A stretch of 64,000 bases of DNA from Ruminiclostridium cellulolyticum H10 (GTDB taxonomy: Bacteria > Bacillota > Clostridia > Acetivibrionales > DSM-1351), in contig NC_011898.1 in the NCBI RefSeq assembly GCF_000022065.1, positions 1,448,001 to 1,512,000 on the forward strand, written 5' to 3'. Every line of letters begins with the position of its first letter. The first letter of the stretch is position 1. Below are positions 2,141-42,996 of this stretch, piece by piece. The notes under the pieces are model-generated. The model worked only from the letters and a program-made list of their open reading frames with translations. It made no database searches and was not told where the DNA came from. Made by a program: the position numbers and the translations under genes.

Positions 2141-3076
2141 GTGATAATATTGTATTTATTTTGTTATAAAACTCTTTGCTTATGCGGAGGATTGGTGATT
2201 AATAAAGCTCCGAGACTCTCCTTGTATTTTTATAACAAAGCTCTCAACATTTGTTTAAAAAATGGTTTGGAAGTTGACTTTATAGATTTGGTGCTGAACA
2301 TTGCGGTAACCCTAGATACGCTGGGAAAGCAGGAAGATGCAGTAAAAACATATAACAAAGTTTTGGAAATGGATTCAAATGAGGCCAGAGCATATTACGG
2401 CTTGGCAATAATATATGACGAACGGAAGGAATTTGACAAAGCCATAGAAATGTACAAAAAGGCTATTGAAATAAATCCTGACTATTCAAAAGCATATTTT
2501 TTTCTTGCCAATTCATGTGATGAGAGTGGGCGAAAAGATGAAGCTGCAGAGTACTATGAAAAGGCCGCAGAGCTTGAGCCATACCACTTCTGGGCATATA
2601 ATAATCTGGCTGCCGTTTACGAAGAAATCGGAAAGTACGATAAAGCCCTGATTGCTATAAGAAAAGGCCTGGAACTGGAACCCAACCATTTCAAGGCACT
2701 TTTTAATGCAGGTGTAATTATGAACAGGCTTGGATATACCCAGAAGTCTATAGCGTATTATGATACATCTATAGAAAAAAACCCAAGGTATGCATACAGC
2801 TATTTGAATCTTTCTCTTATCTATATGGAGGAAAACGACATAGAAAAAGCCATTGAGGTTATATCTAAGGGGGTAAGATTTAATCCCGAGGCTTCGTTTC
2901 TGTACTATAACAGAGCATGTTTCTATGTTCACACCGGGAATCTCAACCATGCTTTAGATGATTTAATTACTGCAACAGATTTAAGCAGTGAGTTGGAAGA
3001 GTATATGAAAACAGATAATGAAATTGACCCGCTAAGAGAGATGGAGTTGTACAAAAAAAGATTCGCATATATATAA
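2141..3076 (+). CDS. Tetratricopeptide-repeat protein
   Basis: The protein (311 residues from the most upstream GTG) is almost entirely TPR repeats of 34 residues: for example AYYGLAIIYDERKEFDKAIE, then AYFFLANSCDESGRKDEAAE, then AYNNLAAVYEEIGKYDKALI, each with the small-residue/aromatic pattern of TPR helices A and B. About seven repeats can be seen. There is no signal peptide, transmembrane segment or catalytic domain, so it is probably a cytoplasmic scaffold. The true start may be GTG 2195, which has GGAGG at 2186-2190, though the spacing of 4 bases is short. It lies between the CooT-like gene and the glycine riboswitch, and its partner cannot be inferred. Confidence 0.8.
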   Translation: MIILYLFCYKTLCLCGGLVINKAPRLSLYFYNKALNICLKNGLEVDFIDLVLNIAVTLDTLGKQEDAVKTYNKVLEMDSNEARAYYGLAIIYDERKEFDKAIEMYKKAIEINPDYSKAYFFLANSCDESGRKDEAAEYYEKAAELEPYHFWAYNNLAAVYEEIGKYDKALIAIRKGLELEPNHFKALFNAGVIMNRLGYTQKSIAYYDTSIEKNPRYAYSYLNLSLIYMEENDIEKAIEVISKGVRFNPEASFLYYNRACFYVHTGNLNHALDDLITATDLSSELEEYMKTDNEIDPLREMELYKKRFAYI

Positions 3077-3121
3077 GCGTAATTAAATATATTCAATTTA
3101 GTACTTTAGCATGGTATTTTC

Positions 3122-3150
3122 TTGACATACTTTGTTGATTTAACTATAAT
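3122..3150 (+). promoter_or_regulatory. Sigma-A promoter of the serine-biosynthesis transcript
   Basis: A perfect TTGACA (3122-3127) and TATAAT (3145-3150) are separated by exactly 17 bp. Transcription would start near 3157, about 30 bases before the first glycine aptamer. Confidence 0.85.
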
Positions 3151-3187
3151 AATAACAATAAATAAATATAAGTCGGATGATTGTTGT

Positions 3188-3343
3188 GGGAGAGATGTTT
3201 TAGAATTCTAAAACTCACCGAAGGAGTAGCACTCTCAGGTAAAAAGACTACAACAGGACGGACCTCTGGAGAGACCAATGACGGCGCCGAAGGGGCAAAG
3301 GCTAGTTAAATTTAGCTTAATCTCTCAGGCAAAAGGACAGAGT
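3188..3343 (+). promoter_or_regulatory. Tandem glycine riboswitch
   Basis: Two consecutive glycine aptamers are recognisable. The first runs from GGGAGAGA at about 3188 through CACCGAAGGAGTAGC and CTCTCAGGTAAAAAGACTAC to the GGACGGAC linker. The second runs from CTCTG (3264-3268) through GCGCCGAAGGGGCAAAGG and CTCTCAGGCAAAAGGACAG to CAGAG (3338-3342). These are the conserved core strings of the class. The 5' strand of the second P1 (3262-3268) can pair instead with 3385-3391, the foot of the downstream terminator, giving mutually exclusive folds. The controlled genes are the class V aminotransferase and serA that follow. Confidence 0.95.
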
Positions 3344-3388
3344 ATCTAAAAGATGCATTACATCTATTTGTTTTTGGTGCATTTCAGA

Positions 3389-3420
3389 GGTCAAATAATT
3401 TTTTTATTTGACCTTTTATT
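3389..3420 (+). terminator. Riboswitch expression-platform terminator
   Basis: GGTCAAATAA (3389-3398) pairs with TTATTTGACC (3404-3413) around a short T loop and is followed by TTTTATT. It lies between the glycine aptamers and the start of the aminotransferase gene, so it is the likely attenuator. Its first three bases also belong to the 7-bp alternative pairing with aptamer 2. Confidence 0.85.
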
Positions 3421-3500
3421 ATACTACATTTCAGGTGTCGGGGATACCGTAAATAATTGTTTAATAATGAAATCTAATAAATATACTGGAGGGCTTAGCC

Positions 3501-4652
3501 GTGGAAAAAGAAAAATTACTTATGACTCCAGGACCTACAATGGTTCCACCAAGGGTTTTAGAAGTTATGAGAAGACAAATTATTCATCATAGGACAAAGG
3601 AATTTGAAACTATTTATGATGAACTGGAAGAAGATTTAAAATTTGTTTTTCAAACAAAAAATATGGTACTTATGTTTTCATCTTCCGGAACAGGTGCAAT
3701 GGAATCTGCCATCGTCAATCTATTTTCACAGGGAGATAAGGTGCTGGCAATAAGCATAGGAGCTTTTGGAGATAGATTTGCAGATATAGCTTCGACCTAT
3801 GGTCTTAACGTTCAAAAACTGGCTGTTAATTGGAGTGAAGCGGTAAATGTTTCAGAAGTAAAAAAAATATTGGATGCAGACGTTAATAATGAAATTAAGG
3901 CAATCCTTGTTACGCATAATGAAACATCAACCGGTGTTACAAACGATATTGAAGCACTTGGAAAACTCACGAAAGATACTGAAAGACTTTTGGTGGTTGA
4001 TGCCATAAGCTCTCTTGGAGGCTTGGACCTTCAGATGGATAACTGGGGAATAGACTTGGTTGTAACAGGCTCACAGAAGGCGTTGATGGCACCTCCGGGA
4101 CTGGCATATGCAGCATTAAGTGATAAGGCATGGGAAGCAGTTGGCAAATCCAAACTTCCTAAATTTTATTGGGACTACAAAAAGTATAGAAAAGGGTTGT
4201 TGAAGGAATCAGAGAATCCGCCATATACTCCAGCTATTTCTTTATTAATAGCTCAGGCAGAGGCCTTGAAGATGATGAAGGAAGAAGGCCTTGAAAATGT
4301 ATATGCAAGACACAAAAAACTTGCATTGGCAACTCAGGCAGGAGTAAAGGCACTTGGTCTTGAACTGTTCCCTGATGAGAAGGTATCTTCATACATAATA
4401 ACTGCTGTTAAAGCACCAGAGGATATCGATATTGCAAAAGTTATAAAAACTATGAACCTTAAGTATGACATAATGATCACAGGCGGTCAGAAGCATCTCA
4501 AGGGGAAAATATTCAGAATAGGGCACTGCGGATATACAGATGGTCTCGATCTTATTAAAACATTTGCAGCTTTAGAGTACTCTTTGAGTGAAGCAGGCTA
4601 TAAAGTTGAAATGGGAGCATCGGTTGGAGCAGTTCAGAAAGCACTACTATAG
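3501..4652 (+). CDS. PLP-dependent class V aminotransferase (alanine-glyoxylate / phosphoserine type)
   Basis: This 383-residue enzyme belongs to the alanine-glyoxylate/serine-pyruvate aminotransferase group (fold type I). It begins LLMTPGPTMVPPRVLEVM, carries SSSGTGAMESAIVNLF near residue 55, the acidic VVDAISSLGG near residue 165, and the PLP lysine in TGSQKALMAPPG near residue 193. GTG 3501 is the start, with TGGAGGG at 3487-3493. Next to serA, such enzymes are thought to serve as the phosphohydroxypyruvate (phosphoserine) aminotransferase replacing SerC in many clostridia and archaea. Use of glyoxylate to make glycine is the alternative. The glycine riboswitch upstream fits either role. 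Confidence 0.88.
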   Translation: MEKEKLLMTPGPTMVPPRVLEVMRRQIIHHRTKEFETIYDELEEDLKFVFQTKNMVLMFSSSGTGAMESAIVNLFSQGDKVLAISIGAFGDRFADIASTYGLNVQKLAVNWSEAVNVSEVKKILDADVNNEIKAILVTHNETSTGVTNDIEALGKLTKDTERLLVVDAISSLGGLDLQMDNWGIDLVVTGSQKALMAPPGLAYAALSDKAWEAVGKSKLPKFYWDYKKYRKGLLKESENPPYTPAISLLIAQAEALKMMKEEGLENVYARHKKLALATQAGVKALGLELFPDEKVSSYIITAVKAPEDIDIAKVIKTMNLKYDIMITGGQKHLKGKIFRIGHCGYTDGLDLIKTFAALEYSLSEAGYKVEMGASVGAVQKALL

Positions 4653-4693: not shown

Positions 4694-6301
4694 ATGAAAA
4701 TAATTGTAACGGAGCGAATTGCAGAAGATGGCATTAACTATCTTAAGGAAAACGGTCATGAAGTAGATACAAGGTATGGAATTTCTCATGAGGAATTACT
4801 TGAGACTATAGAAGATTACGATGCAATAATAGTAAGAAGTGTTACAAAAGTAAATGAAGAACTTTTGCAAAGGGCCAGCAAATTAAAGGTTGCAGGACGT
4901 GCAGGAAACGGCATTGACAATATTGAAGTTCCCGCATGTACCAAGAGAGGTATTATTGTAGTTAATACACCTGAAAGTAATATCATGGCTGCTGCTGAGC
5001 TGGCAGTCGGACATGCATATGCGATATTCAGAAACATACCGCAGGCACATTGGGCAGGTAAAGCTCAGAATGATTTCAGAAGAAGCAGGTTCAATGGCAA
5101 CGAGCTTGATGAAAAGACAGCCGGAATAATCGGTCTGGGTAGAATTGGTTCTATAGTAGCCACAAAACTCAAGGGATCCAATATGAAGGTAATTGCATAC
5201 GACCCGTATATAACTGATGAAAAGTTTAAAAAGCTTGGCGTAGAAAGATGTGATACTCTTGAAGAACTTTTGAAACAGAGTGATCTTATTTCTCTGCATA
5301 CACCTAAGACATCGGAAACCTACGGAATGATAGGCGAAGAACAACTAAAGCTCTGTAAAAAGGACGTAAGAATAGTAAATGCCGCAAGAGGCGGACTTGT
5401 AAATGAAGAGGCCTTATATAATGCAATCAAAGAAGGCCATGTAGCAGCTGCTGCACTGGATGTTCTTGATCCTGAGCCGAACTATGACAAAAAACCCGAA
5501 GATCAGGATTATCAAAACAAGCTTTTTGAACTTGACAATGTGATAATTACTCCTCACCTTGGAGCTTCCACTGCTGAAGCAAACTACAATGTAGGTACTG
5601 CAGTTTCAAAGCTTGTTTCAGACGCACTGAAAGGTGAAATGGTTGCAGCTGTTAACATGCCTCCTATGAAAAATAAGGATTTGAATGAGATGAAACCCTA
5701 TCTTGATTTGGCTGAAATACTTGGTAAAATTTATTACCAGGCTGAAAAAGAAACAGTTAATAAGATTGAGATAGTTTACAGCGGAGAACTTGCAGAACAG
5801 GAAACAAAAATATTGTCACTTTCAGTTTTAAAGGGCTTCCTTGATATAGTAATTAAAGAAAAGGTAAATTATGTAAATGCAGAGTTTATTGCAAAAAACA
5901 TGGGAATATCCATTGTAGAAAGCAAAACCTCACAGCTAGAAAAATACACTAACCTGATTACTGTTAAATTCTTTACAAAGAGTAAGGTATTATCTGTTTC
6001 CGGTACTGTATTTGCAATACAGGAAATACGTGTTGTAGACTTCTTCGGCTACAAACTCGACTTTGAACCTACTCCTTATGTTTTAGCAATTCAGAATGTA
6101 GACGTTCCGGGTATTATCGGTCAGATAGGAACTATACTCGGTGCCAGTGATATCAATATTGCTGCCATGCAGTGGAGCAGAAATCACAAAGGTGAAAAGG
6201 CGGTTGCATTTGTAAGCGTTGACTGCGAAGTTCCGGCAAATGTCCTTGAACTTCTTAAAAAGATAAACGGTGTATTAAAGGTAACATTACTTAAATTCTA
6301 A
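4694..6301 (+). CDS. serA: D-3-phosphoglycerate dehydrogenase with ACT domain
   Basis: This 535-residue enzyme oxidises 3-phosphoglycerate to phosphohydroxypyruvate, the first step of serine synthesis. The NAD-binding motif GIIGLGRIGSIVATKLKG lies near residue 145. Catalytic regions include NAARGGLVNEEAL (Arg), DVLDPEP (Glu) and ITPHLGASTAEA (His). After the intervening domain, the C-terminus (about residues 460-535) is an ACT domain beginning YVLAIQNVDVPGIIGQIG, the usual serine-sensing module, so the enzyme is probably feedback-inhibited. It lies 41 bp behind the aminotransferase with AGGAGG before ATG 4694, and shares the riboswitch-controlled transcript. Length is normal for the long type of SerA. 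Confidence 0.95.
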   Translation: MKIIVTERIAEDGINYLKENGHEVDTRYGISHEELLETIEDYDAIIVRSVTKVNEELLQRASKLKVAGRAGNGIDNIEVPACTKRGIIVVNTPESNIMAAAELAVGHAYAIFRNIPQAHWAGKAQNDFRRSRFNGNELDEKTAGIIGLGRIGSIVATKLKGSNMKVIAYDPYITDEKFKKLGVERCDTLEELLKQSDLISLHTPKTSETYGMIGEEQLKLCKKDVRIVNAARGGLVNEEALYNAIKEGHVAAAALDVLDPEPNYDKKPEDQDYQNKLFELDNVIITPHLGASTAEANYNVGTAVSKLVSDALKGEMVAAVNMPPMKNKDLNEMKPYLDLAEILGKIYYQAEKETVNKIEIVYSGELAEQETKILSLSVLKGFLDIVIKEKVNYVNAEFIAKNMGISIVESKTSQLEKYTNLITVKFFTKSKVLSVSGTVFAIQEIRVVDFFGYKLDFEPTPYVLAIQNVDVPGIIGQIGTILGASDINIAAMQWSRNHKGEKAVAFVSVDCEVPANVLELLKKINGVLKVTLLKF

Positions 6302-15061: not shown

Positions 15062-15336
15062 AAATATGACATGGAATAAAGGCTGTGAATAAGAGGAGTA
15101 TACAGTTAGCTGATACCCAAAGAGAGAAGTGGTTGGTGAAAAGCTTCGGATCGGGACTGTAGAAGGTAGCTTGGGAGCTCTGCACCGAAGTAACAGTAGG
15201 CTGCAGCGGGGTTGCGAACGTTAACTCGTCAGAGATCATCAATAGATTTATAGGATTTGACCTGTAACATTTATTCGTGAATTTTGGTGGTACCGCGAAA
15301 CATGACTTCGTCCAAATACTGGACGGAGTTTTTTTA
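15062..15336 (+). promoter_or_regulatory. T-box leader (valine-responsive) with terminator
   Basis: The leader shows the Stem I K-turn/loop region (AAGAGGAGTA), the distal AGAGAGAA...GGTTGGTGAAAA motif, a TACAGT/ACTGTA stem above the specifier loop, the T-box core GGTGGTACCGCG (15286-15297), and a terminator of ACTTCGTCC and GGACGGAGT (15305-15330) followed by T7. The specifier loop reads GAAG then GTA (15166-15168), a valine codon, which fits valS downstream. Uncharged tRNA-Val would pair with GTA and the UGGU bulge and favour antitermination. Confidence 0.93.
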
Positions 15337-15631: not shown

Positions 15632-18283
15632 ATGGATGAACAGCAAAACATAGCTAAACAATACGATCCAGGACAGGTTGAGGATCGGCTATATAAAAAA
15701 TGGATGGATGAAGGTTACTTCCATGCAGTACCTGACAAGAACAAAAAACCATTTACAATTGTGATTCCCCCACCCAACATAACAGGGCAGCTTCATATGG
15801 GTCATGCTCTGGATAATACTCTACAGGACATTCTCATAAGAACAAAGAGAATGCAGGGTTACAGTGCATTGTGGCTACCCGGAACCGACCATGCCAGTAT
15901 TGCAACAGAAGCAAAGATTGTTGATGCAATGGCAAAAGAGGGTATATCCAAGGATATGCTGGGACGTGAAAAATTTCTTGAAAAGGCTTGGGAATGGAAA
16001 AAAGTTTATGGTGGCAGGATAGTTGAGCAGCTTAAAAAACTTGGAAGCTCCTGTGACTGGGAACGTGAACGCTTTACAATGGACGAGGGACTTTCCAGGG
16101 CAGTTCAGGAAGTTTTCCTGAAGCTTTATGATAAAGGCCTTATATACAAGGGAGAAAGAATTACAAACTGGTGTCCTAAGTGCAACACCTCAATATCTGA
16201 TATAGAAGTTGAGTACGAGGAACAGGCAGGCAACTTCTGGCATATCAAGTATCCCGTAAAGGACTCTGACGAATTTGTAATTATTGCAACTACCCGCCCG
16301 GAAACTCTTTTGGGTGATACTGCTGTTGCAGTAAATCCTGAGGACGAGAGATATACCCATCTGGTAGGGAAAACCTTGATCCTGCCTTTGGTAAATAAGG
16401 AAATTCCCGTAATAGCCGACTCTTACGTTGACAAGGAATTCGGTACAGGTTGTGTTAAAATAACACCTGCTCATGACCCGAATGACTATGAAGTTGGGCT
16501 TCGTCACAATCTTCCTCAGATAAGGATAATGGACGACAATGCCATAATGAATGACAACGCTGGACAGTACAAGGGTATGGACCGATACGAAGCCAGAAAG
16601 AAGATGGTAGAAGATCTAGAGAAACTGGGACTTCTGGTTAAGATTGAACCTCATTCACACAATGTAGGCACTTGTCAGAGATGTAGGACGGTTGTTGAAC
16701 CTCTTATTTCTAAACAATGGTATGTTCGCATGAAGCCATTGGCTGAGCCTGCGATAGATGTTGTAAGGAACGGAACAATTAAATTTGTACCTGAGAGATT
16801 TTCTAAAATATACTTTAACTGGATGGAGAACATTCAGGATTGGTGTATTTCAAGACAGCTTTGGTGGGGACACAGAATTCCTGCATACTACTGTCAGGAA
16901 TGTGGGCACATGATGGTTCAGGGAACTGCTCCTGATACCTGTTCAAAATGCGGTAGCAATAGAATAGAACAGGACCCGGACACACTGGATACATGGTTCA
17001 GTTCAGCATTGTGGCCTTTCTCAACACTAGGCTGGCCTGAAAAAACAGAGGACCTGGAATATTTTTATCCGACGGATGTACTGGTAACAGGTTATGATAT
17101 CATATTTTTCTGGGTTGCAAGAATGATATTCTCTGGTGTGGAGCATATGAAGCAGGAGCCGTTCAAGTACGTATTCATACATGGTATTGTGAGAGATTCA
17201 CAGGGTAGAAAAATGAGTAAGTCCCTTGGAAACGGAATAGACCCTCTGGAGGTAATAGCTCAGTACGGTACCGATGCTTTGAGATTCGCTCTTACAATAG
17301 GGAACTCACCGGGAAATGACTTGCGATTCTCACCAGAAAAGGTTGAATCTGCAAGAAACTTTGCAAACAAGGTATGGAATGCGTCAAGATTCGTTCTGAT
17401 GAACTTTGATGAAAACCTTGATTTCAGCAAGGTAGACAAGAAGAAGTTCTCTATTGCCGACAAATGGATTATGAGCAGGATAAACACCGTAACCAAAGAG
17501 GTTAGTGAAAATATAGAAAAGTTCGAGCTTGGTCTTGGTTTGCAGAAGGTATATGACTTTATATGGGAAGAGTTCTGCGACTGGTACATCGAGATGGTTA
17601 AACCTAAGCTGTACGACAGAGAAAGCGAAGGAAGGCTGGAAGCCCAGTATGTTCTCAACTTTGTTCTCAGAAACGCTATGAAGTTGCTGCATCCGTATAT
17701 GCCTTTCGTAACTGAGGAAATCTATACACACCTGATTAATGACGGAAGGAGCATAATGATTTCCCAATGGCCGGAGTACAGCGAAGAACTGAACTTCGCC
17801 GAAGATGAAGCAAAAATGACCATTATCATGGATGCTATCAGAAGCATAAGAAATACTCGTGCCGAAATGAATGTTCCGCCTTCAAGAAAAGCAAAGATTA
17901 TATTTGTTGCAGCCGGTGAAGAAGAAAAGGCTACTTTGGCAGAAGGAACTTCTTTCTTCCAGAGACTTGCAAGTGCTTCTGACGTGACAGTTCAACTGAA
18001 CAAGGATGGAATTCTTTCCGATGCGGTAGGGGGAGTTGTACACGGTGCAGAAATATTCATTCCTCTTGATGAGCTCATAGACATTGAGAAGGAAATAGAA
18101 AGACTGGAAAAGGAAAAGAAAAACCTTGAGGGAGAACTAAAAAGAGTAAAAGGGAAGCTCAGCAACGAGGGCTTTGTTGCAAAAGCTCCACAGAAGGTTA
18201 TAGATGAAGAAAAGGCAAAGCAGGCCAAGTACCAGGATATGTATGACAAGGTAGCTGAAAGACTGGAAAGTTTAAAAAAGTAG
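15632..18283 (+). CDS. valS: Valyl-tRNA synthetase
   Basis: This 883-residue class I synthetase charges tRNA-Val. The HIGH-type motif appears in [17 protein letters not shown] (about residues 46-62) and the KMSKS motif in [16 protein letters not shown] (about residue 525). The editing domain lies between ([20 protein letters not shown]). Zinc-ligand-like CxxC pairs occur in CPKCNTS and CQECGHM. The C-terminus is the coiled-coil arm typical of bacterial ValRS (about residues 815-880). AGGAGG precedes ATG 15632. The T-box with a GTA specifier upstream agrees with the identity. Confidence 0.97.
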
Positions 18284-26016: not shown

Positions 26017-26098
26017 GTATTATAGATGTCTGTTGGTATAAGAAATAACTGGGATACTAAGGGGGTGGAAAAAGTCAGGGTTAATATGAATTAAAAAG

Positions 26099-26270
26099 GC
26101 GCCAGGACAGATTTTTATAAGTCTGTTGACGAGGAGAAGGAAGCGATGCACTAATTAACGTGTGTCGTATCGAAAGATTCGGCGGATACCTTCCGGCTGT
26201 TACGGTCGAGAGAGACAAAACAAAACTTGCAGGCGACTGCAAGAACAAAATGGTCTCATGTAGCTAATCC
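26099..26270 (+). promoter_or_regulatory. glmS ribozyme/riboswitch
   Basis: The conserved core is clear: GCGCCAGGACAGA (from 26099), GTTGACGAGGAGAAGG, ATCGAAAGATTCGGCGGATACC and TTCCGGCTGTTACGG. Further 3' a stem of GAGAC with GTCTC encloses a hairpin, ending near 26270. Binding of glucosamine-6-phosphate should trigger self-cleavage just before 26099. The base at the -1 position is G (26098), where A is more common. About 250 A/T-rich bases separate the ribozyme from the glmS start, in which I see no further element. Confidence 0.95.
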
Positions 26271-28626: not shown

Positions 28627-28965
28627 GTGCGCCCAGCGAAGCTGTAGTGCACTTGCCAGTGTAAGAATGGCACGGGTAATTACCAAGAAGCCCGGTAGCC
28701 AATCCCGGTGCATACTAGTAATGCTATGTGCTGAACGGGAGGATAAAGTACTTGTCTAAACAACAGGGCGAGCGAAAATGCAGACCGTAACAAAAAGTGA
28801 ATTCTGCCGTATCGTCAAAAAAGGTCTCTGGTATTTATTACAGACAACAGAACTGTAATTAGGGAAGGAACTCTGCTCTATTCAAGAATTCTGGAGGAGG
28901 TAAGAGCGAGTGAATGCCTAAAAGGGTATGTTAATTCTTATTGAACCGCCGTGTACCGACCACTC
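28627..28965 (+). mobile_element. Truncated, ORF-less group II intron remnant
   Basis: The segment opens with GTGCGCCCAGC, the GUGYG-type 5' end of a bacterial group II intron, and continues with structured, GC-richer domain-I-like sequence (CACTTGCCAGTGTAAGAATG, GGTAATTACCAAGAAGCCC) unlike the surrounding A/T-rich DNA. Near the end, GAACCGCCGTGTACCGA (about 28943-28959) resembles the 5' half of intron domain V, but the 3' half and domain VI are absent. No reverse transcriptase frame is present. It is therefore a deleted, immobile relic. The assignment rests on motif memory, not on folding. Confidence 0.6.
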
Positions 28966-41526: not shown

Positions 41527-42996
41527 TTATGGCTGTTGCCTGCATCCTTCCACCAGCTCATCTTTAATTTTATTAAGAAGCCCTTCCATAGTACTCTTGC
41601 GGACTGAAGGTTTGTAATAACCGACTGCCAAAGTAATGATACCGTTATAGGTACTGGCTACAAGGAGTATTCCGGGAGCACGTACAACAGGCGGGATGAT
41701 ATATGCATCAGTTACAACATTCTTACCGAATCTAATTAAAGACTTTGAAATTAAGCCCATATTTGATAATACAGGAGAGCACACGTCGACAAAAGAAAAA
41801 GGACTTAGTGACTCTAGTTCATTAACATGAGATAGGGCCTTGAAGTATGAGCAAATTTGGCGGAAACTCATCTTTTCAATATAGTCTGCCATTCTGGTGC
41901 TTGCTACGCTCGGATGTTTGTTTTTAAAGTATTTTGTTAAGGACACTATTCTTGATAAGGTTCCTTCAAAGGGTTCATGAGGTTTTCTGCCTATTTTTAT
42001 TACAACACCGCCTGAGAGATTTCTTATTGCTTGAGCCTTATGATCAGGGAGGTACTTTCGCAAATCAATAGTAATAGGAATATCCATTGGTACACCGTAT
42101 GGAGGCTTGGATATTTTAAACATAGCCCTAAAAATTGCGGTTAGAATCAAGTCGTTGATTGTAGCATTTCTGCTTTTAGCATAATTTTTCAGTATATCTA
42201 TATGCCCGTAAGGGAGTTTGCATACCACAAAACGAGTATCACCCATTCGTTTATTCTTCCAGTGAAACCTCCATGTAGGTAGTGCTACTTGCTCATGGAG
42301 ATTCCAAGAAGTATCCAGACTTTCCTTGCCAAGTGCACATAATAGATTCTTATGATCCTCCCTATTGCGTACACTCGGGTTTGGAGTATATTCCATATCT
42401 CCATCATCTATACGTGAATAAATATCCGAAAGAAGTTGTATATATTCTTTTGCACCAGCACCATCGCTGCATACATGGTTGATTTTCACACCCAAAGTAT
42501 CATGTGTCCCGGAACGTATGAGTTTGACCATAAACATGGGGGCATTATCCATATGCAGAGGACTTTCTAGGAAGTGTTGAACAGCTTCTTCCGTATTATC
42601 TGTCTCAACTATGGAACAAAAATTTATATTATCAATATCATCAAAGCGTTTCCAATATGGTGAACATTTCTTAATAAATCCGCATCCCATGACTGGTTCT
42701 GCATCAACTGACAATCTTACTGCTTTTACAAGCTTGTCAAAGTCTAATCTTCCATCTAGTTTCATAATGGCCTGGATTTGAAAATTTGCCGTTTTATATT
42801 TTGCAACGTAATTACATATATCATATGCGTTGGCCGGTATAATTTCTGAACTGTTTACTGTATTGCTGAAGTTCAGCTTATTAATACCTGAGTATTTCGC
42901 TAATGACTTTTTAAGTTTTCTAAAATAGCTTCCTGTCGTTGGAGGCAATTTGGACATGTTAATTTTATTATTACATGGCTTTAATTTAAATTTCAT
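41527..42996 (-). CDS. Condensation-like (CAT-fold) acyltransferase paralog 3
   Basis: This 489-residue paralog shares the blocks FQIQAIMKLDGRLDFDKLVK, AVRLSVDAEPVMGCGFI, TIDLRKYLPDHKAQAIRNLS and AYIIPPVVRAPGILLVASTY. The active-site motif is NHVCSDGAGAKEY with His, Asp and Gly intact. Like the others it has a basic, variable N-terminal extension of about 50 residues. It is upstream of the ACP gene on the same strand, 98 bp away, and may share the transcript. The expected reaction is acyl transfer from a thioester carrier. Confidence 0.82.
   Translation of the reverse strand: MKFKLKPCNNKINMSKLPPTTGSYFRKLKKSLAKYSGINKLNFSNTVNSSEIIPANAYDICNYVAKYKTANFQIQAIMKLDGRLDFDKLVKAVRLSVDAEPVMGCGFIKKCSPYWKRFDDIDNINFCSIVETDNTEEAVQHFLESPLHMDNAPMFMVKLIRSGTHDTLGVKINHVCSDGAGAKEYIQLLSDIYSRIDDGDMEYTPNPSVRNREDHKNLLCALGKESLDTSWNLHEQVALPTWRFHWKNKRMGDTRFVVCKLPYGHIDILKNYAKSRNATINDLILTAIFRAMFKISKPPYGVPMDIPITIDLRKYLPDHKAQAIRNLSGGVVIKIGRKPHEPFEGTLSRIVSLTKYFKNKHPSVASTRMADYIEKMSFRQICSYFKALSHVNELESLSPFSFVDVCSPVLSNMGLISKSLIRFGKNVVTDAYIIPPVVRAPGILLVASTYNGIITLAVGYYKPSVRKSTMEGLLNKIKDELVEGCRQQP

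Follow-up and report, generated by a model that had tools for sequence, protein, structure and literature searches.

Would a glycine riboswitch placed before genes of serine synthesis open or shut these genes when glycine is bound? This question is raised by a leader of Ruminiclostridium cellulolyticum H10, found in the 64,000-nucleotide stretch of contig NC_011898.1 analysed here (hereafter the window; positions are counted from its first base, and all features of the leader and of its genes lie on the forward strand). An earlier note on this DNA had predicted an OFF switch, in which the 5' strand of the P1 helix of aptamer 2 either completes the aptamer or enters a rival pairing that keeps a terminator from forming. 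Its premise, that ON switches prevail among the glycine riboswitches described, is fair, yet OFF examples are known (PMC5829553) or predicted (PMC9481103). Our data support the mutual exclusion of aptamer 2 P1 and antiterminator, since the free and P1-forced folds reverse and the relatives keep the arrangement. On the basis of this modelling, the leader is very probably a tandem glycine riboswitch acting as an OFF switch on the transcription of serine-synthesis genes, its response to glycine being predicted.

A sigma-70-type promoter, TTGACA-17-TATAAT (3122-3150), is predicted purely from its match to the consensus (12 of 12 positions). Aptamer 1 (3177-3260) and aptamer 2 (3264-3342) are both assigned to RF00504 by covariance-model score, with 55.2 and 51.3 bits respectively for a gathering threshold of 32; the two matches are 3 bases apart and a single terminator is located after the second aptamer. 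They are the sole glycine aptamers found in the whole genome (4,068,724 bases). In the Rfam scan of the window, only RF00504 reaches gathering in the leader and no T-box was found there.

The first gene (3501-4652) encodes a class-V aminotransferase (PF00266, 111.2 bits), a probable phosphoserine aminotransferase in place of SerC, and it is followed by serA (4694-6301), the phosphoglycerate dehydrogenase gene, whose product exceeds the curated cut-off (TIGR01327, 630.2 bits for a cut-off of 454). The first gene misses the SerC cut-off (TIGR01364, 45.7 versus 443.6 bits), and neither a SerC over cut-off nor a gcvT match was found anywhere in this genome. Within the order, the riboswitch precedes a class-V gene in 16 genomes, and a SerC over cut-off is present in only one of them (G006), some of these genomes being incomplete; in the nine genomes with the riboswitch directly before serC, that serC is the SerC over cut-off. 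The simplest reading of these sequences, and the one from which we infer phosphoserine production, is that the class-V enzyme makes this compound. That two distantly related aminotransferases replace one another behind the same leader suggests the class-V enzyme as the phosphoserine aminotransferase of these species, and the earlier description of the genes as serine-synthesis genes is upheld by SerA and by the rarity of SerC in the genomes with a riboswitch before a class-V gene, the substrate of the class-V enzyme being predicted. It is rather unlikely that the first enzyme would make glycine directly from glyoxylate, a reading of the gene that is compatible with the OFF switch. The best NCBIfam match is indeed aspartate-glyoxylate aminotransferase BhcA, below its cut-off (339 versus 650 bits), and the closest proteins of solved structure bear the names of serine- or alanine-glyoxylate aminotransferases, but serA follows the gene, canonical SerC occupies the same position in sister species and the near-absence of SerC from the 16 genomes, with the same reserve on their completeness, argues in the same direction. 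Feedback repression by glycine, as supposed at the outset, makes sense whether the first enzyme yields phosphoserine or glycine. In Thermosyntropha, a homologue sharing 49% identity with the class-V aminotransferase is preceded by a T-box of 138.1 bits (L132, 672-877), and no glycine aptamer over gathering was found before it. Under the counting rule that we assume, a Ser specifier is possible for this T-box: UCC (Ser) fits if the count starts on one side, CCA if it starts on the opposite one.

The P1 helix of aptamer 2 is formed by CUCUG (3264-3268) and CAGAG (3338-3342), as seen in the sequence and in the RF00504 match. The coordinates were read back, and the three strands on which the earlier prediction was built, ACCTCTG (3262-3268), the CAGAG just mentioned and CAGAGGT (3385-3391), are exactly where it had placed them. 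Folding and duplex energy define a rival helix between GACCUCUGGAG (3261-3271), which overlaps both the 5' strand of P1 and the conserved GGAG that follows P1, and UUUCAGAGGUC (3382-3392), which contains a copy of the P1 3' strand followed by GUC and is found at the same place in relatives. The rival pairing announced earlier is thus real on these grounds, but it is longer than the 7 bp proposed: it comprises 11 bp, G-U pairs included, with a duplex energy of -18.0 kcal/mol when one extra isolated pair is counted. When the P1 5' strand was shuffled 20,000 times, 21 of the products reached this energy; 5,000 dinucleotide shuffles of the segment downstream gave 1. The heptamer CAGAGGT is not uncommon in the window (6 occurrences on the forward strand and 3 on the reverse strand), and CAGAGGTC has one occurrence per strand.

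The predicted intrinsic terminator is a stem-loop at 3388-3414 with a 10-bp core (3388-3397/3405-3414), covering 3386-3416 if extended, and followed by the U-rich tail UUUAUUAU (3415-3422). Five bases of the antiterminator 3' strand (3388-3392) belong to this core; the overlap of CAGAGGT with the terminator stem stands, with four of its bases in the core and not its last three as had been stated. The core begins 46 bases past P1 and has no base in common with the P1 3' strand, so the layout is not the gcvT-type ON layout. As judged from folding and duplex energy, P1 and the antiterminator share a strand and the terminator is compatible with a closed P1, as is expected of an OFF switch.

Folding with and without a constrained P1 had been proposed as a check of the model. 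When 3157-3422 was folded freely, the antiterminator pairs reached 0.92-1.0, P1 was at 0 and the terminator at 0.03-0.09, for an ensemble of -79.0 kcal/mol; when aptamer 2 P1 was forced, the terminator rose to 0.93-1.0 and the antiterminator fell to 0, for an ensemble of -74.2 kcal/mol. The ensemble cost of forcing P1 on this stretch is 4.8 kcal/mol, which would need to be paid by the ligand and by tertiary contacts, neither being included in the model. In the P1-forced fold, a linker hairpin is predicted at 3351-3384, and its last bases are common to the antiterminator. In folds of the growing chain, P1 was at 0.78-0.90 for 3' ends between 3342 and 3354 and at 0.15 at 3358, as the linker emerges, and the antiterminator was at 0.93-1.0 for ends between 3390 and 3406, ahead of the complete terminator 3' arm. 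Since P1 drops before the antiterminator exists, the ligand would have to hold P1.

When only the sequence from aptamer 2 onward was folded, the terminator was at 0.75 with P1 barred and at 0.99 with P1 formed. The coexistence of terminator and free aptamer, which had been named beforehand as the state contrary to the model, is therefore not favoured on 3157-3422 but is present in the shorter fold. As the terminator reaches 0.75 despite a barred P1, the switch would have to rest partly on the order of folding during transcription. A terminator favoured either way at equilibrium would also agree with a degenerate leader that no longer switches, either because the aptamers have ceased to bind or because the terminator is too weak; this terminator is A-U rich, with just three G-C pairs in its core and an imperfect U tail, and a simple terminator scan of 2800-3800 reported none. 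In our own reading, the scan may have missed 3388-3414 because extension of the stem to 3386/3416 consumes part of the U tract. Degeneration is in any case very doubtful, given that both aptamers are well above gathering and that the layout is kept before aminotransferase genes in 8 of the 11 genomes of the genus (four class-V and four serC). A search at the level of the family yielded these 11 genomes again.

The leader could also be supposed to set the access to the ribosome site, the hairpin 3388-3414 being incidental. The ribosome site of the first gene, GGAGG (3488-3492), lies within the same leader, and a passage of PMC6944388 states that translational control is preferred by the riboswitches of Proteobacteria and Actinobacteria. 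However, the predicted pairing of 3488-3492 is nearly equal across the free, P1-forced and antiterminator-forced folds, its main partners being local (3473-3475 and 3500), and permissive rules placed a hairpin with a U-rich tail downstream of the aptamer in 73 of the 74 elements scanned. Translational control is accordingly given very little weight here, and termination is retained as the probable point of control.

The mechanism that we propose for this OFF switch draws on the results computed here, namely the two aptamers, the pairings that exclude one another and recur in relatives, and the reversed layout found before gcvT; glycine binding and its effect on termination are what we infer from them. 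The polymerase would transcribe both aptamers before the rest of the leader. With glycine bound, aptamer 2 P1 would stay closed, its 5' strand would be unavailable, and the terminator would form ahead of the aminotransferase gene and serA. With scarce glycine, the P1 5' strand would be captured by UUUCAGAGGUC once the latter is clear of the polymerase, and the resulting antiterminator would open aptamer 2 and occupy half of the terminator stem, so that transcription would continue.

For comparison with related leaders, 58 genomes of the order were searched with RF00504; 42 of them have it, and the 125 matches were merged into 75 elements. All the loci except the window's own were fetched (74), and L093, at a contig end, was excluded from the loose-rule and terminator scans. 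Downstream gene families were assigned by searching five representative proteins, the others being named by similarity to these. The first downstream gene encodes a class-V aminotransferase in 16 cases, and is serC in 9, serA in 7, glyA in 22 (one of them, L088, read across a masked stretch), an AGCS gene in 10 and gcvT in 9, with none readable in 2. Under a loose rule, 62 of the 64 serine-gene, glyA and AGCS elements are OFF-like. Under a strict rule combined with a shuffle test, the same 64 give 45 OFF-like elements, 19 without call and none ON-like. The nine gcvT elements give 7 ON-like, 1 without call, 1 without terminator and none OFF-like. Among the elements left without call, the script had picked another hairpin in L066, and no convincing antiterminator was found in others, for instance L073, L092, L104 and L121. 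The glyA-first elements (for example L070-L072, L114 and L121) divide into 14 OFF-like and 8 without call; in L121, glyA is followed by serC and serA. As far as sequence comparison can tell, the survey supports an OFF logic before serine-synthesis, glyA and AGCS genes across the order.

This comparison also bears on the converse possibility, that bound glycine would block termination in the window as it would before gcvT. The ON layout does exist in the order: in the seven ON-like gcvT elements the P1 3' strand also serves in the 5' arm of the terminator, and binding should prevent termination, whereas in the window the arm carries a downstream copy of this strand. The window terminator is free of any overlap with P1 and is favoured by a forced P1, and not one of the 64 elements before serine genes, glyA or AGCS genes is ON-like; an ON switch is therefore judged highly improbable for this leader, and the OFF switch is retained. 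Genomes G001, G010, G045, G046, G051 and G052 possess an ON-like gcvT element together with elements of the serine-gene, glyA or AGCS group; for the latter elements the strict rule gives no call in G045 and G052, nor for one of the two in G051. ON-like and OFF-like versions are found together in one genome, for example in G001 and G010, and such pairs constitute a natural set for studying the inversion of riboswitch logic. In G046, two serA leaders approximately 12.5 kb apart (L109 and L110, C4:29313-29484 and 41853-42024) have equal scores and the same downstream layout, and represent either a local duplication or an assembly repeat.

The anti-P1 site that matches best along the leader sits at the foot of the terminator's 5' arm in 27 of 32 serine-gene, 18 of 22 glyA and 8 of 10 AGCS elements, for 5.9, 4.6 and 2.5 expected from position alone; in two of the misses, L066 and L085, the script had picked another hairpin. 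The count for gcvT (0 of 8, for 0.1 expected) says little, because the arms are mostly outside the scanned stretch. The five inner P1 pairs are possible in all 64 elements, window included, and the bases 5' of them are mostly unpaired in P1. In the register set by these five pairs, complementarity to the terminator arm is seen at the second and third of eight positions (55 and 56 of 64 elements) and, less often, at the first (29 of 64).

Covariation is less general. An apparent covariation of positions 2 and 3 with the terminator arm, in which own pairing beat all 2,000 swaps, was discarded as biased, because the script had selected each arm for its pairing with the 5' strand of the same element. 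When the register was taken from positions 4-8 alone, none of 5,000 swaps reached the own pairing of the 64 elements. This signal is gone without the AGCS elements (1,851 of 5,000 swaps reach it) and for the serine genes alone (4,479 of 5,000), and own pairing barely beats swaps when identical pairs are counted once (358 of 5,000). Complementarity thus appears widely kept among these sequences, and the hint of compensatory change is weak, amounting to one contrast between AGCS elements and the rest. A further helix, between the leader GUC (3172-3174) and GAC (3261-3263), is seen in the P1-forced fold of the window. It was rejected as a general feature: of 26 serine-gene elements readable in the order, just 12 form all three pairs, and in a set of 54 elements before serine genes or glyA, where the glyA register may be off by one, its own pairing is no better than swaps (1,605 of 2,000 reach it).

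The relatives were also folded. When the RNA ends just past the terminator 5' arm, five or more pairs joining this arm to the P1 5' strand are predicted in 24 of 32 serine-gene, 18 of 22 glyA and 8 of 10 AGCS elements. Four of the eight gcvT elements also reach five pairs at this decision point, yet P1 itself is there at 0.78-0.99, because the arm and the P1 3' strand overlap. In equilibrium folds, the terminator gains more than 0.3 upon P1 formation in 10 of 32 serine-gene, 7 of 22 glyA and 1 of 10 AGCS elements; the change stays within 0.3 in 22, 15 and 9 of them respectively, and none of the 64 moves by more than 0.3 in the opposite direction. Of eight gcvT elements, one moves in the opposite direction and seven stay within 0.3. 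These models suggest that at equilibrium the terminator would often win even when P1 is barred.

Beyond the order, 291 genomes of the class were searched; the matches listed outside the order merge into at least 122 elements, of which 100 were fetched. The 12 serA elements among them are called OFF in 7 cases, ON in 1 and without call in 4, and the 36 AGCS elements OFF in 17 cases and ON in 1, with 15 without call and 3 without terminator. The 12 gcvT elements comprise 1 ON, 9 without call and 2 without terminator. For the 21 elements before genes that we take, from our own reading of the sequences, to be of grd/thioredoxin type, the figures are 4 ON, 16 without call and 1 without terminator. 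The single glyA element received no call, and the 18 elements with another or no gene comprise 3 OFF, 4 ON, 6 without call and 5 without terminator. We think that the hairpin was wrongly chosen in the one serA element called ON (L240), where an AGAGGUC hairpin can be seen by eye further down, and we suspect that many of the gcvT and grd elements without call stem from the location of just one aptamer. In three serA leaders of family f23 (L238, L270 and L278), the U tract after the hairpin abuts the Shine-Dalgarno sequence (UUUUUUUAGGAGG), and termination and ribosome access may thus be linked in these leaders.

OFF control of serine genes by glycine was already predicted in 2022, and the window is not its first case. 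According to passages of PMC9481103 (RNA Biol 2022), the glycine riboswitch of two glycine/T-box-Ser tandems, upstream of serC, serA and serS, is predicted to be OFF, and so are the ZTP/glycine tandems that Bacillus and Oceanobacillus have ahead of a serine-synthesis gene. The glycine/T-box-Ser tandems described there resemble the window by their two full glycine aptamers, their serine-synthesis genes and their predicted OFF logic, but they are joined to a Ser T-box, whereas none was found in the window leader. In Streptococcus pyogenes, a passage of PMC5829553 reports that glycine lowers expression through the riboswitch of a Na+/alanine symporter, with premature termination seen on Northern blots; this riboswitch is also OFF, but it controls a transporter gene and not a biosynthetic one. 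The gcvT-type ON riboswitches, represented by the gcv leader of C. difficile (in the part of PMC11477304 consulted) and by the gcvT elements of the order, share with the window the aptamer family, the tandem layout and a transcription terminator. The association of serC and serA with a glycine riboswitch was noted in a single Clostridium species (PMC3766115, BMC Genomics 2013), and that of serC in metagenomes (PMC2211319, BMC Genomics 2007). It is the same gene association as in the window, and the passages concerned assign neither ON nor OFF. Contiguous glycine riboswitches governing glyA are listed in a passage of PMC12452182 for gcvT-gcvH-glyA-sdhA operons of Actinomycetota, and our search of the open-licence literature found neither a report of an OFF-type glycine riboswitch ahead of glyA in Clostridia nor one on the window leader.

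What the present data contribute is the distribution of the arrangement across the order, the members with glyA as first gene, the contrast with gcvT and the presence of both logics in one genome. They add comparative support to a published prediction based on few examples, that glycine riboswitches can repress serine synthesis, and they extend the arrangement, reported for a single Clostridium species in the passage of PMC3766115 cited above, to many genomes within one order. The case of the window itself is a well-supported and fairly ordinary feedback control. We lean slightly towards a broader view, in which one aptamer family would run the whole glycine circuit of the order with opposite signs, shutting serine synthesis (serC or its class-V stand-in, and serA), glyA and AGCS uptake and opening the glycine cleavage genes. 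The sign would be set only by the terminator arm, which reuses the P1 3' strand in the ON version and a downstream copy of it in the OFF version, and a short duplication could consequently invert the riboswitch.

The Rfam scan of the window returned further RNA elements away from this leader. A T-box leader (RF00230, 111.4 bits), the only T-box match in the window, is located at 15076-15318; the next long ORF (15632-18283) appears by eye to encode a valyl-tRNA synthetase, and GUA fits as the specifier. A glmS ribozyme/riboswitch is matched at 26087-26267 (84.9 bits) and a Group II intron D1-D4 at 28653-28795 (72.0 bits).
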